Source: an uncultured Peptococcaceae bacterium (lineage in GTDB: Bacteria > Bacillota > Peptococcia > Peptococcales > Peptococcaceae). From it: a DNA stretch of 64,000 bases. Both the position numbers and the translations under genes were made by a program. Positions 41,177 to 47,690 of the stretch are shown here, one piece after another. The notes beneath the pieces are model-generated. The model saw only the letters and a program-made list of their open reading frames with translations. It searched no databases and was not told the DNA's origin. The first letter of the stretch is position 1. Every line of letters begins with the position of its first letter. The stretch lies in the NCBI GenBank assembly GCA_949743265.1, contig CATJSX010000079.1:1-64000 (forward strand), in the 5' to 3' direction.

Positions 41177-41311
41177 CTATTCTTTTCTCATTTTATCTGG
41201 CATTTTAGGCTGATAATATTCAAATAAGCAAGCCCCATTTGATGCTAAAGTCCCTACAAAAAGCGTAACAGCTGCCAATGCTGAAAAAATTTGTGCTTTA
41301 AATTTCTTCAT
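41177..41311 (-). CDS. agrD: AgrD-type cyclic lactone autoinducer precursor peptide
   Basis: The 44-aa peptide has three parts: an amphipathic/hydrophobic N-terminal leader (MKKFKAQIFSALAAVTLFVG), a core TLASNGACLFEYYQPKMP with one Cys, and a charged tail DKMRKE. The Cys followed by an aromatic residue and the PxxP-like charged tail match clostridial AgrD precursors; the thiolactone ring is probably Cys28-Tyr32 (CLFEY). GGAGGTGAG lies 7 bp before the ATG. It directly follows agrB (56 bp). AgrB should cut at the tail and form the ring. Confidence 0.88.
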   Translation of the reverse strand: MKKFKAQIFSALAAVTLFVGTLASNGACLFEYYQPKMPDKMRKE

Positions 41312-41367
41312 CCGACTCACCTCCTTCCAAGATTCAATAGCTTATTTTAATTTCATCATAATGATGA

Positions 41368-41994
41368 TTAAAAATCTTTCTCCATTATTACACTGTGATC
41401 AGTTTTCGGCTTGTTCTGTGCTTTGAATTTGTTCTGTCCTACAGCAACAACCAAGGAAATACTCGCTTGCAAAACGCCAAAACTTAAACAAACTAAAAAT
41501 CTATACTTCCCTAAGGCTAACCCTATACTCAATATAATGCTGACCAGCAAAATAGCCAGCAAACTGCCTTTTCTAAATTTTTTCTGTTCTTTTGCTGTAA
41601 AAGGTCTGTTTTCATGTTCAACTGGTGCAAATACAATTCCTGCCACTGCAGTTATCAGCCAGCTTATGACAGCAAATACTCCATAGCTATTTATGGGAAA
41701 TAAAAAGATAAACGTTAAAAAAATACCGTATGAAGCCATTGACACCAAAGCACACCTAAAATGAGTGCTGGCGTGATAGCCGCCAAAACAAAACCGCATC
41801 ACCATAAAAGCGCCTAAATAAACTACACTCTCCCACAATTTTCCCAAAAGTACAGCACAAATCAAAATACTCGCCCAGTAACTAACCGTTGATATAGTTA
41901 CCTCTATGCAATACTGATAAACTTCTCGCTCATCATCTGCTATAATTTTTTCTTGATATAATCGTTCAGAAAGTTTGACCGCTAATTTTTCCAT
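41368..41994 (-). CDS. agrB: AgrB, accessory gene regulator membrane endopeptidase
   Basis: The 208-aa polytopic membrane protein carries the AgrB signature CFGGYHASTHFRC, with the catalytic His and Cys (about residues 77 and 84), and several TM segments (SYWASILICAVLLGKLW; SLLAILLVSIILSIGLALG). It cleaves AgrD at its C-terminal tail and forms the thiolactone. GGGGAGG lies 8 bp before the ATG. It has its own promoter (42021-42086) separate from the agrAC transcript, which ends at a terminator. Confidence 0.94.
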   Translation of the reverse strand: MEKLAVKLSERLYQEKIIADDEREVYQYCIEVTISTVSYWASILICAVLLGKLWESVVYLGAFMVMRFCFGGYHASTHFRCALVSMASYGIFLTFIFLFPINSYGVFAVISWLITAVAGIVFAPVEHENRPFTAKEQKKFRKGSLLAILLVSIILSIGLALGKYRFLVCLSFGVLQASISLVVAVGQNKFKAQNKPKTDHSVIMEKDF

Positions 41995-42020: not shown

Positions 42021-42086
42021 ATTGTAACATTTTTAGACAATCTGCGAAATAGTTTGAGGATAATTTACTATTCATGAGGACAATTT
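42021..42086 (-). promoter_or_regulatory. agrBD promoter with tandem AgrA/LytTR-type repeats
   Basis: On the minus strand, AAATTGTCCTCA (42086-42075) and AAATTATCCTCA (42066-42055) are direct repeats with a 20-bp period and one mismatch. Five bases downstream lies a weak -35 TTTCGC (42049-42044), then a 17-bp spacer and -10 TACAAT (42026-42021). Two in-phase direct repeats just upstream of a poor -35 are the expected site of a LytTR activator such as AgrA. Confidence 0.8.
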
Positions 42087-42110
42087 GCAAATTTAGTATT
42101 TTTTCTCATA

Positions 42111-42156
42111 AAAAACTGCCGTATAAGACAAATTTTTATCCTAAACGACAGTTTTT
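42111..42156 (-). terminator. Terminator between agrC and agrB
   Basis: AAAAACTGCCG (42111-42121) pairs with CGACAGTTTTT (42146-42156) with one mismatch. The hairpin overlaps the agrC stop and separates the agrAC transcript from agrBD. Confidence 0.7.
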
Positions 42157-43450
42157 AATCCATAGAAATGTTATTCATTGTAATGTCTAAATAAAATATC
42201 CCCTCTTCTGCTTTTAAATTCATATAACCATTATATCGCGTAACGATTTCCTGAATAGTAAGCAAACCAATACCATGCAAATCTTTTTCCGCTTTAGTCG
42301 TTTCTATTTTGCCATCAACAATTTTAACTGGATTCACAACAGGATTGCTGATTTGCAGATCAATGTGATTTTCATTAGCCATCAAAGAAACCCTGATAAC
42401 AGCATTTCCTATACCGCTTGCTGCTTCTATAGCATTTTCCAACGCATCTGCCAACAAAACAGCAAGATCAATATCATTAACCTTTATCTCCCCTACTAAT
42501 GTCGTTATCACCATTTTAATTTTTAATGAAGCCGCTTTTTGCTTTTTCTCATTTAAGACGATATCTATCGCCAGATTTTGCGTCAAAGGAACTTCTACTG
42601 TTATAAAATTTCCTATCATCTTTTCAATGTAAGCTATGGCATCTGTTAATTTTTCTTCCTGAAGATAGCCTTTGAGCGCTAACAAAATATGTTTCAATTC
42701 ATGCCTTAAGACATTGGTTTGCTGCTTTTCTTCTATAATGCTGGCATAATATTTCTCTTGACTTTTTTGCGCATTTTGAAAAACAGCAAATCTTCTTTTG
42801 GTCACTTCATTATCCACTTGAGCTTCAAAAAGGTAAAAAATGATAATATTCGCCAAAATTAAAACACAAACTGTCATAAATGAACTCATATACTCTTTAG
42901 GATTATCCACTAAATAACTTGCCATCATCAATCGATTAAAACTCAAAACAGTTGCAAAAGGAAAAACCATTAACATGACTAAAGTTTTGGTTGCAATCTC
43001 AGCTTGATTAAACTTGCGGAAGAGTAATATTTTAATTAGTATTAGCGTTAAAAATTTTGATAAAATCGTACCACGAATTTGATCAATGGTTAATCGTGCA
43101 TTAAAAGACGCTAGATCTCCATAACAAAATACAGAAAAAGATTTTATAGCGACTTCTGCACCAACACCTATAACCATAAAAATTACCAGCACAAACAATT
43201 TCAGCGTTATTTTTCCTGTAAACAAGACTAGCGGAATCAGCGATAAAATCACAAAATTGCCAAACAACAGCCAATGTTTATTGGGTACAATTGTGTTTAA
43301 AGTCAGCCCTAAGATTCCAATCAACACCAGCACCAAAAACACACTAACTTTACTATACTTTTTGCGTTCCAAATTCAGTATACAAAACCAATACAAAGTG
43401 ATAACTTCCATCACAACAGAAAATACTTTCATAGAGATTTCTATGGTCAT
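42155..43450 (-). CDS. agrC: AgrC-type GHKL sensor histidine kinase
   Basis: The 431-aa protein has six or seven N-terminal TM helices (residues 1-215), the usual receptor domain for the autoinducing peptide, then a dimerisation helix with the phospho-acceptor His in LRHELKHILLALKGYL (about residue 250). The GHKL ATPase has N-box LADALENAIEAA and a G-box with HGIGLLTIQEI. The ATG overlaps the agrA stop by one base. It should sense the product of agrD/agrB and phosphorylate the response regulator encoded upstream. Confidence 0.92.
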   Translation of the reverse strand: MTIEISMKVFSVVMEVITLYWFCILNLERKKYSKVSVFLVLVLIGILGLTLNTIVPNKHWLLFGNFVILSLIPLVLFTGKITLKLFVLVIFMVIGVGAEVAIKSFSVFCYGDLASFNARLTIDQIRGTILSKFLTLILIKILLFRKFNQAEIATKTLVMLMVFPFATVLSFNRLMMASYLVDNPKEYMSSFMTVCVLILANIIIFYLFEAQVDNEVTKRRFAVFQNAQKSQEKYYASIIEEKQQTNVLRHELKHILLALKGYLQEEKLTDAIAYIEKMIGNFITVEVPLTQNLAIDIVLNEKKQKAASLKIKMVITTLVGEIKVNDIDLAVLLADALENAIEAASGIGNAVIRVSLMANENHIDLQISNPVVNPVKIVDGKIETTKAEKDLHGIGLLTIQEIVTRYNGYMNLKAEEGIFYLDITMNNISMD

Positions 43451-44184
43451 TATCTATAACCCCTTCGATAATTATAAAATAATTCATTAACGATATCCCA
43501 TTTATCTCTGCTGATTGGTATTTGTGCTCTGAATTTATCATCTTCCAACAAAGCCCAATACTTATAATCTTTTTCTTGATATAATCGCAGAACATACTGC
43601 AAATTAACTATATAACTCCGCTGACAGCGACAAAAACTCCGACAATCTTTGAGTTGTTTTTCTATTTTATGGAGAGCCATTTTCCAGCGGAAAGGCTCCG
43701 GCGATAACCGATGATAGATCTCAGTATAGTTCCTTTCACTGGCAATATAATAAATATCCTGAACGCGCAAGGCAATATGTTCATGAATTTTCCCTAAAAA
43801 TTGGTCATTAAAAACCATATAATTGTTCCATTCATATTTTGTTTCGCATTGTCGTAATACTTTATTGATTTCCTTTTCTTGAATCGGTTTTTGCAAAAAC
43901 CCCATAATTTCTATTGGAATCGCTTCATAAACTTTATTGGCGTGATTAGTAACAAACACGATCATAATATTTCGGTCTTTTTGCCTTATTTTTATTGCTG
44001 CTTCCAAACCGGTTATCCCGCCGGGAATTTCAATATCCAAAAATAACAAATCAAAATGAATCTCTGCTTGAAGTAACTCTTCCATCGTTTTATACGTATA
44101 AATTTGATGCCTAGCGTCTTCTAATAAAATATTTTCTATCTCTTTTCTGTCACAGTCTAAATCATCACAAACAGCGATATTCAT
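43450..44184 (-). CDS. agrA: AgrA-type LytTR response regulator
   Basis: About 244 aa. The receiver has the acidic pair CDDLD, phospho-acceptor Asp in LLFLDIEIPGG (about 51) and conserved Lys in FLQKP. The C-terminal LytTR DNA-binding domain includes VQDIYYIASERNYTEIYHR and FCRCQRSYIVNLQYV. ATG 44184 (MNIAVCDD) is preferred because GAGAGG lies 9 bp upstream; an ATG three codons earlier lacks a site. A plain promoter (TTTAGT-17-TATAAT, 44334-44306) drives it. Predicted targets are the tandem repeats at 42055-42086 and 47659-47690. Confidence 0.93.
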   Translation of the reverse strand: MNIAVCDDLDCDRKEIENILLEDARHQIYTYKTMEELLQAEIHFDLLFLDIEIPGGITGLEAAIKIRQKDRNIMIVFVTNHANKVYEAIPIEIMGFLQKPIQEKEINKVLRQCETKYEWNNYMVFNDQFLGKIHEHIALRVQDIYYIASERNYTEIYHRLSPEPFRWKMALHKIEKQLKDCRSFCRCQRSYIVNLQYVLRLYQEKDYKYWALLEDDKFRAQIPISRDKWDIVNELFYNYRRGYR

Positions 44185-44305
44185 TTTGTACATCCTCTCT
44201 TGACCTTCATTTTACATGCTTGCTGAACAGGGATTAAAAGCTACTGCTATCCCTCTAAATATTTTCCTTTTTTGTGTTTCTCAAAATCATTCATCTTCTT
44301 TTATT

Positions 44306-44348: not shown

Positions 44349-45131
44349 TTACCACGCAAAAGGATAAAATTGACTAAGATATAACGAAAATTCTCGGCAT
44401 TTCATTTGATTAACAGGCAAATTAGAATCTGAAACTTTGTCATATAGCTGAATAAACAGGCTCTGTTTGTTCAGCTTAATTTTTAGAAAATCATGTTTAT
44501 AGCAAAGCAGCTTGTTAATCAGTTCGTCATGATTGTTCTCCGAAAACCACATTGCCCAGCAACTCGGCTGCCAAATCTCATCTTGTTTCAATCTTTCCAA
44601 CGCATGGTGTTGATCATAAGTCTGTGTATTATAGCATTGATACATTAAGTGACGCCAATATTCTGCTATTGGCGCTTTCGTTTTTGTATAGAACCAATGA
44701 TTTTCTAAAGAAGCAATATAAGCTCTTACGCCTAAATTAAGCTTAAACTGTTCATGAATTCTGTTTAAAACCGTATCTTTTTCCCGTTCAAATTTATCGA
44801 TTTCCAAAACGATATAAAACAATACCTGTGTATCAAATTTTATAACTGTAAGAGATTCTTTGCCAAAAGAAAAAACGTCTAAAAAGAACGGCCGCCCGCT
44901 ATCAAATCGTTGAGCAAACAACTGCAGCGCTTTTTTCTCTGAAAATTGATGCAGCGTTCGGTCTGCTTCAAATTTATAAACTGCTTTTTTATGGTCAAAG
45001 CTCATTTCCATATCCTGATAAATATTGCAATAGATTTTATCCAATCCCGTTGATAATTTAAGAAATTCTTCAGCAAAAATCATCAATTTCGCATGATTTG
45101 CTGTCAAGATTTTAATGAGTACCCTCTCCAT
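44349..45131 (-). CDS. Hypothetical 260-aa protein
   Basis: The protein appears soluble, with no signal peptide or TM helix, and is rich in aromatic residues and His. It has repeated charged helices (VLEIDKFEREKDTVLNRIHE) and a Trp-rich stretch (DEIWQPSCWAMWFSENNHDE). No catalytic motif or family is recognised. It is divergent from a small XRE regulator (118-bp intergenic), which may control it. It lies upstream of agrA on the same strand but is separated by the agrA promoter. Confidence 0.65.
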   Translation of the reverse strand: MERVLIKILTANHAKLMIFAEEFLKLSTGLDKIYCNIYQDMEMSFDHKKAVYKFEADRTLHQFSEKKALQLFAQRFDSGRPFFLDVFSFGKESLTVIKFDTQVLFYIVLEIDKFEREKDTVLNRIHEQFKLNLGVRAYIASLENHWFYTKTKAPIAEYWRHLMYQCYNTQTYDQHHALERLKQDEIWQPSCWAMWFSENNHDELINKLLCYKHDFLKIKLNKQSLFIQLYDKVSDSNLPVNQMKCREFSLYLSQFYPFAW

Positions 45132-45892: not shown

Positions 45893-46465
45893 TCATATAT
45901 GGTTAACATTAATATTTGAACCTACCATCTTTTCTGCACCAGAATTATATAAACCTACATAATAATTCTTATTTTCACCTAATTTTGTGCTTATACTGTA
46001 TATAGAATCCATTTCTGTTGCCAACACACTACCTACATAAGTTCCATCTAACGAATAAAATGCTGCATCAAATGGCGTTTCAGCATTTGCTTGAAAATGA
46101 TTACTACTAAAATACACTTTAGTAAAAATATAATTTTCTGTTCCGTCCCATGTTCCTTTATAAGGATATGCAGCTTCTTTTTGTGGTATATGTTGATAGC
46201 CTATATTATGCCCCCTAACACAACGCAACATTTCTCCTTGTTCTACTTCAATGCCTAATATATTTTTCACTTCAATAGGAATTACTTCCAAAGCATCTCG
46301 CTCAATATAATGCAAATCTGCTATAGTTTTATATTCTTCAGCAACTACGTTCTCTTTGCTATTTTGAAAAATATCACTTTCTTTATCACATGTTAAACTT
46401 GGCATAGTATGCTCATGACACATGAGCATAATTAAAATGTTTATGACCATACCACAGAATTTCAT
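45893..46465 (-). CDS. Hypothetical exported protein
   Basis: The 190-aa protein has a hydrophobic N-terminus (MVINILIMLMCHEH) consistent with a signal sequence. The rest is strand-rich (ENYIFTKVYFSSNHFQANAETP; FYSLDGTYVGSVLATEMDSI; NYYVGLYNSGAEKMVG), like small secreted beta-sandwich proteins. It is the third gene after the agr-type promoter at 47625-47690, but a hairpin at 46591-46617 separates it from the second, so co-regulation is uncertain. No family recognised. Confidence 0.6.
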   Translation of the reverse strand: MKFCGMVINILIMLMCHEHTMPSLTCDKESDIFQNSKENVVAEEYKTIADLHYIERDALEVIPIEVKNILGIEVEQGEMLRCVRGHNIGYQHIPQKEAAYPYKGTWDGTENYIFTKVYFSSNHFQANAETPFDAAFYSLDGTYVGSVLATEMDSIYSISTKLGENKNYYVGLYNSGAEKMVGSNINVNHI

Positions 46466-46629: not shown

Positions 46630-46866
46630 TCATTTTTGTTTTTTCTCTTTGCTATTCCGATAGAAACGTACCCGATAGAAACCTATACACAATGAAATAA
46701 AACCTGCCGACAAGCCACCCCATACATAGGTTAACTCGTTATAAGCTAACCATTTATAGATGATAGAAAACGGAAAAAGACCACTAAAAAGAACCATCAA
46801 CGAACTGGCTAAGAAAGCGATAATAATATACATGATATATAAACGCACTTTATCTATTTTTTTCAT
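46630..46866 (-). CDS. Small two-TM membrane protein
   Basis: The 78-aa protein has two hydrophobic helices (LYIMYIIIAFLASSLMVLF; VWGGLSAGFISLCIGFY) and a basic C-terminus (YRNSKEKKQK). AGGAG lies 9 bp before the ATG. It is 25 bp downstream of the exported glycine-rich gene and surely in its operon. Size and position resemble immunity proteins of exported peptides, but there is no sequence evidence for that. Confidence 0.7.
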   Translation of the reverse strand: MKKIDKVRLYIMYIIIAFLASSLMVLFSGLFPFSIIYKWLAYNELTYVWGGLSAGFISLCIGFYRVRFYRNSKEKKQK

Positions 46867-46891: not shown

Positions 46892-47485
46892 CTATGGCAT
46901 GGGTATATAAATTTCATCTCCATCGGGAATTTCGTCTTCATAAATATCTCTAGTATACGTTCTGGTATCATAGAAAAGTTCTGTTTGATAAAGATTATTG
47001 GACGGTCCCCCATAAATACCTAATCTTTCATAATATTCAAATACGGTTGGAAGTCCTGCCTCTAAAATACGTGTTTGTTTCAAGAAATCAACGGTTATCT
47101 TATAATCTACAGGAAATTTACCAGTTAAAAACATTCCAGCCAAAGAACCTGCAACTGCCCCAACAACTACGCCTGTTGGACCATTATATTTTCCTAACAA
47201 AGCACCAGTAATTATTCCACCTACAACAGAAAGTGGTTGATCTCCTAAACCATATACATCATGCATATCATACAATGTAACCCATGGAGTCGGATAGGTC
47301 ATACCTCCTGCTTGTGGCACTACAGTCTTATGTTGCACCGCTAGCCTATGATATTTCACAGATGAATTACTTTCAGCGATACCCTCAGAAGATGTAGCAG
47401 CCATTGCTGATTGGGTACCTATTGTAAATAGCATAACAAACAACAATGATATTGACAATAATTTTTTTGAACGATTCTTTCTCAT
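46892..47485 (-). CDS. Exported glycine-zipper-like protein, candidate AgrA target
   Basis: The 197-aa protein has a Sec-type signal peptide (MRKNRSKKLLSISLLFVMLF...SAMA|A). Residues about 88-126 form a Gly/Ala-rich, probably membrane-inserting segment (LSVVGGIITGALLGKYNG, VVVGAVAGSLAGMFL), followed by a Tyr- and acid-rich tail ending DGDEIYIPMP. ATG 47485 is chosen because GGGAGAG lies 8 bp upstream; a longer frame from 47548 lacks a site. The upstream promoter carries the same tandem repeats as agrBD. An effector or bacteriocin-like function is a hypothesis; no family is recognised. Confidence 0.75.
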   Translation of the reverse strand: MRKNRSKKLLSISLLFVMLFTIGTQSAMAATSSEGIAESNSSVKYHRLAVQHKTVVPQAGGMTYPTPWVTLYDMHDVYGLGDQPLSVVGGIITGALLGKYNGPTGVVVGAVAGSLAGMFLTGKFPVDYKITVDFLKQTRILEAGLPTVFEYYERLGIYGGPSNNLYQTELFYDTRTYTRDIYEDEIPDGDEIYIPMP

Positions 47486-47624
47486 TAGTATCTCTCCCTT
47501 CGTTATTTCATGCCTACTCATAAAAAACATACACAAAATTTTTGACATTTCATTTTACATTTCTTAAGAAATTTTGCTGTTAGCATCCTTATATTGATTC
47601 AGGCCTTGAATCTGGAACAATTTG

Positions 47625-47690
47625 ACTATACCATAGCAAACATATTTTTACAATATGTAAGGGGTATTTTACAAACAATAGGGACATTTT
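47625..47690 (-). promoter_or_regulatory. Promoter with AgrA-type tandem repeats
   Basis: On the minus strand, AAAATGTCCCTA (47690-47679) and AAAATACCCCTT (47670-47659) repeat with a 20-bp period. Five bases downstream lie -35 TTGTAA (47653-47648), a 17-bp spacer and -10 TATAGT (47630-47625). Repeat consensus AAAWTRYCCY, period and 5-bp gap to -35 all match the agrBD promoter. Confidence 0.7.

Follow-up and report, generated by a model that had tools for sequence, protein, structure and literature searches.

Direct-repeat pairs with a 20-bp period lie just upstream of two promoters in the window (the whole 64,000-nt stretch of DNA analyzed here), one driving the autoinducer genes agrBD (site 1) and the other a gene for an exported protein (site 2). 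Elsewhere in the genome there is a third such promoter (site 3). The repeats are probably operators of a LytTR-type response regulator, most likely AgrA, and the three promoters would then constitute an agr regulon that is not purely local. An earlier sequence-only reading had proposed a local quorum-sensing regulon. That proposal is partly supported, in that the window has a genuine agr locus, the motif common to both promoters is rare genome-wide, its geometry is LytTR-like, and a further promoter of this kind exists, but the word "local" is not borne out, site 3 being on another contig.

The agr locus and the exported-protein operon

The agr quorum-sensing locus is complete, with AgrB, an AgrD precursor, a sensor kinase, and a LytTR response regulator. 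agrA and agrC come first, followed by a separate agrBD unit that carries site 1.

43450..44193, minus strand: agrA, LytTR response regulator and proposed binder (LytTR 1.4e-15, Response_reg 5.7e-14)
42155..43450, minus strand: agrC, sensor kinase of the GHKL type (HATPase_c_5 6.8e-22; AgrC model 4.9e-07, below cut-off)
42109..42154, no strand assigned: inverted repeat AAAAACTGCCGT..ACGACAGTTTTT, putative bidirectional terminator between agrC and the agrBD promoter
42055..42086, minus strand: site 1, tandem repeats AAATTGTCCTCA / AAATTATCCTCA, one of two perfect pattern matches in the genome
42021..42049, minus strand: agrBD promoter, TTTCGC-17-TACAAT (or TTCGCA-16-TACAAT)
41368..41994, minus strand: agrB, processing protease/exporter (PF04647, E 3.9e-38)
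41177..41320, minus strand: agrD, cyclic lactone autoinducer precursor, ..GACLFEYYQPKMPDKMRKE (TIGR04223, 44.8 bits, cut-off 19)

The inverted repeat at 42109..42154 was read from the sequence; it falls outside the loop limit of the hairpin scan and so is unlisted there. Several members of the family have agrB directly after agrC, without a promoter of this kind, and separate transcription of agrBD is therefore not general in the family. AgrB relatives in the family are at most 35% identical, and comparable repeats were not found at their agrBD promoters; a 21-bp repeat before the agrA of one relative overlaps a terminator-like hairpin. The genome also holds a second, decayed agr locus (L109 5398-8290, contig C105) with a LytTR regulator, an AgrC split by a frameshift, and an intact AgrD (..LACFGIFYQPKVP.., TIGR04223 40.3 bits), but no recognizable AgrB. 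Two proteins of no known family adjoin the agr region in the window, one of 260 aa (44349-45131) and one of 190 aa that is apparently exported (45893-46465). LpxC is absent from 46/46 class genomes.

The second repeat pair precedes the following features.

47659..47690, minus strand: site 2, tandem repeats AAAATGTCCCTA / AAAATACCCCTT, period 20
47625..47653, minus strand: promoter of the exported-protein operon, TTGTAA-17-TATAGT, with TG before the -10
46892..47485, minus strand: exported 197-aa protein with a signal peptide and a glycine-zipper hairpin at about residues 84-121 (Gly-zipper models below cut-off)
46630..46866, minus strand: 78-aa two-helix membrane protein, 25 bp downstream (AmaP-like at 19 bits, below the cut-off of 55)

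The gene for the 78-aa membrane protein probably belongs to the same operon as that for the 197-aa protein. The predicted structure of the latter is of low confidence (mean pLDDT 40.5), and no relatives of it were found in the 21 genomes of the order, in GTDB or viral contigs, or in plasmids; a search of 399 genomes of the phylum gave one weak Gly-zipper match of 55 residues (E 5e-4). Close relatives yielded neither the exported gene nor a comparable AgrB (best 35%).

The claimed 20-bp-period pairs are present upstream of both genes. On the minus strand, site 1 reads AAATTGTCCTCA-N8-AAATTATCCTCA (42086-42055, the repeats at 42086-42075 and 42066-42055) ahead of agrBD, and site 2 reads AAAATGTCCCTA-N8-AAAATACCCCTT (47690-47659, the repeats at 47690-47679 and 47670-47659) ahead of the exported-protein gene. 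With the -35 elements aligned, the second 12-mer ends 5 bp before the -35 at both promoters, in agreement with the initial description, a distance that becomes 8 bp if counted from the 9-mer core of the repeat. The 17-bp spacer assigned to both promoters stands less firmly. It can be read at each, but the agrBD -35 in this 5/17 register, TTTCGC, is weak (hexamers 7/12), and an alternative register with TTCGCA, a 6-bp gap, and a 16-bp spacer scores better (9/12). In favor of the 5/17 register at agrBD, each of the three sites has a TATT that overlaps the beginning of the -35, always at one and the same offset. Equal spacers at sites 1 and 2 are thus a good but not a forced reading.

Rarity of the pattern and the third promoter

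Equally good repeat pairs elsewhere in the genome, the check that the sequence-only reading had set for itself, were not found. A whole-genome search (3.04 Mb) with AAAWTRYCCY-N10-AAAWTRYCCY returns two perfect matches, which are sites 1 and 2, and 11 matches with two mismatches, but not one with a single mismatch. The promoter-proximal half combined with a -35/-10 pattern likewise has two perfect matches in the genome, again the two known sites, and of its 18 one-mismatch matches only one, on contig C152, is accompanied by another repeat 20 bp upstream. Of 28 near matches examined (2 or 3 mismatches), 22 fall inside ORFs and C152:30510 alone has the exact 5/17 geometry with 7/12 promoter matches. 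When the repeat sequence is left free and only repeat and promoter geometry is scored, sites 1 and 2 rank first in 201 kb of the genome. Short repeats are common in DNA of 37.6% GC, and the pairs might in principle be chance repeats without operator function; against this stand their rarity, the exact geometry that they share, and the third site, and we consider the idea very improbable.

The pair and half-site patterns were themselves derived from sites 1 and 2, which calls for caution about circularity. A less circular test takes the agr repeats alone and demands a match of at least 16/24 together with a promoter of at least 9/12. On that basis, a hit that equals site 2 in both repeats and promoter should turn up about 0.03 times in a window and about 1.6 times in a genome, rough figures that come from a small simulation with one hit in 3.8 million positions. 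Judged by the agrBD repeats alone, site 2 would not be significant genome-wide. The case for it is strengthened because the third site (C152:30510) has the same period and geometry.

Site 3 (C152:30510-30575) reads TAAACATCCTCATTACTTGCAAAATATCCCCTGCATATTATGA-17-TATAGC, also with a period of 20. It was found by means of 20 pattern positions, and its likeness was then scored at 56 other positions, where it is identical to site 2 at 38/56; 27 control sites give 15.2 +/- 3.2 with a maximum of 21. By the same measure, sites 1 and 2 agree at 21/56 (controls 15.2 +/- 3.2). Local comparison of sites 2 and 3 gives 53/76 identical bases, with transitions accounting for 21/23 of the differences. This transition excess (window 47615-47690 against L095 8511-8586) is above a 2:1 bias (p 0.007). 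The homology extends over about 140 bp (E 3.6e-12 in a comparison with 18 kb) and stops near the predicted start of transcription. The TATT at the -35 is common to sites 1, 2, and 3. A consensus of the three, allowing up to 3 mismatches, finds only sites 1-3 among 46 class genomes; it is absent from the other 45, and reverse-read controls give zero. A further candidate, a 92% match on contig C121, was rejected because it falls inside a transporter ORF.

The homology of sites 2 and 3 over about 140 bp, which site 1 does not share beyond the repeats, could also mean that they are a duplicated promoter fragment under the control of an unrelated factor, the likeness to agrBD having arisen by chance in AT-rich promoter DNA; the figure of about 1.6 comparable matches per genome from agr-only matching would fit such an origin. 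Just 0.03 or so are expected in the window, however, and site 2 has a 20-bp internal repeat of its own, placed in the same register relative to the -35, in addition to the first rank in 201 kb that it shares with site 1 for repeat and promoter geometry. An unrelated factor at sites 2 and 3 therefore appears unlikely, and common operators at all three promoters remain the favored interpretation.

No plus-strand ORF of at least 25 aa follows site 3 for about 500 nt, so that the promoter may lead into an RNA or else be a relic. The fold z behind it is -3.4, probably driven by one long hairpin, and Rfam gives no match above its cut-off. Downstream of site 3, an inverted repeat (TAACAATAGGTCTCCTGTGAT.., L095 8845-8926) has nearly perfect arms of about 21 bp and no clear T-run. 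The idea that site 3 is what is left of a copy of the entire operon was considered and rejected, as no protein remnant was detected and the homology ends near the predicted transcription start.

The proposed agr regulon and known LytTR systems

Direct repeats with a period of 20-22 bp just before the -35 are the form in which LytTR operators have been described (PMC6193735; PMC2838878; PMC4227749). Published examples are mostly 9 bp long and separated by 11-13 bp, stand about 4-11 bp ahead of the -35, and often serve autoregulation, with the repeats themselves poorly conserved (PMC6193735). The present pairs fall within these ranges, with a period of exactly 20 at all three sites and a distance to the -35 of 5 bp from the 12-mer or 8 bp from the 9-mer core. 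The sequence consensus for LytTR sites is ACAGTTNAG, to which the repeats bear a loose likeness by eye, on the plus strand only, with ACAATTTG as the best reading.

Seven LytTR proteins are encoded in the genome, and AgrA is the putative binder on account of proximity, as the nearest of them and the one encoded between sites 1 and 2, and because site 1 lies at the genes for its own signal, as is usual for autoinduction. Any of the six others, including the AgrA-like protein of the decayed C105 locus, might bind these operators instead, which would leave the exported operon outside quorum sensing. Such an assignment is improbable given that site 1 lies on agrBD itself, directly downstream of agrAC, and that the other LytTR genes checked have no matching repeats next to them; upstream of the four non-agr LytTR regulators examined, no repeats with a period of 20-22 occur.

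With AgrA as the regulator, a pair of LytTR domains would bind the two direct repeats, which are separated by about two turns of the helix, and would assist RNA polymerase at the weak -35 next to them. AgrB and AgrD would produce a cyclic peptide, sensed by AgrC, which would phosphorylate AgrA and so raise agrBD transcription in a positive feedback loop. Activation by AgrA and dependence on the peptide are inferred. AgrA would also turn on the exported Gly-zipper protein and its small membrane partner, and the third promoter, of the same type and homologous to the second, would be part of the regulon. A fuller version, in which the outputs are the exported protein and its membrane partner (possibly a bacteriocin-type effector/immunity pair) together with an RNAIII-like RNA at site 3, is speculative and rather doubtful as a whole.

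The regulon is small and new, yet of a known kind, and its interpretation is probable but unproven. It would be a concrete and testable case of an agr regulon from beyond the well-studied pathogens, in which one output gene belongs to no known family and the third target may be non-coding, and, if true, would show what peptide quorum sensing controls in a little-studied bacterial lineage.

Several characterized systems offer points of comparison. VirR boxes of Clostridium perfringens are found directly upstream of the -35 and are strictly phased, and a regulatory RNA is among the targets of VirR (PMC2838878); the box sequence differs from that found here, and the RNA at site 3 is only a candidate. 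The HdrR/BrsR operators of Streptococcus mutans resemble the present sites as autoregulatory 9-bp direct repeats 11-13 bp apart and 4-11 bp before the -35, but their motif differs and the regulator is paired with a membrane inhibitor rather than a peptide-sensing kinase (PMC6193735). In the Staphylococcus aureus agr P2/P3 system, the two promoters have -35/-10 spacers of 18 and 20 nt, in contrast to 17 nt here, and the proximal repeat is centered near -60 as opposed to an estimated -46 or so (PMC4227749). The motif also differs, and the gene order here is A-C-B-D. Both systems encode a LytTR regulator with agr and place a direct-repeat pair upstream of the autoinducing and of the output promoter (PMC4227749).
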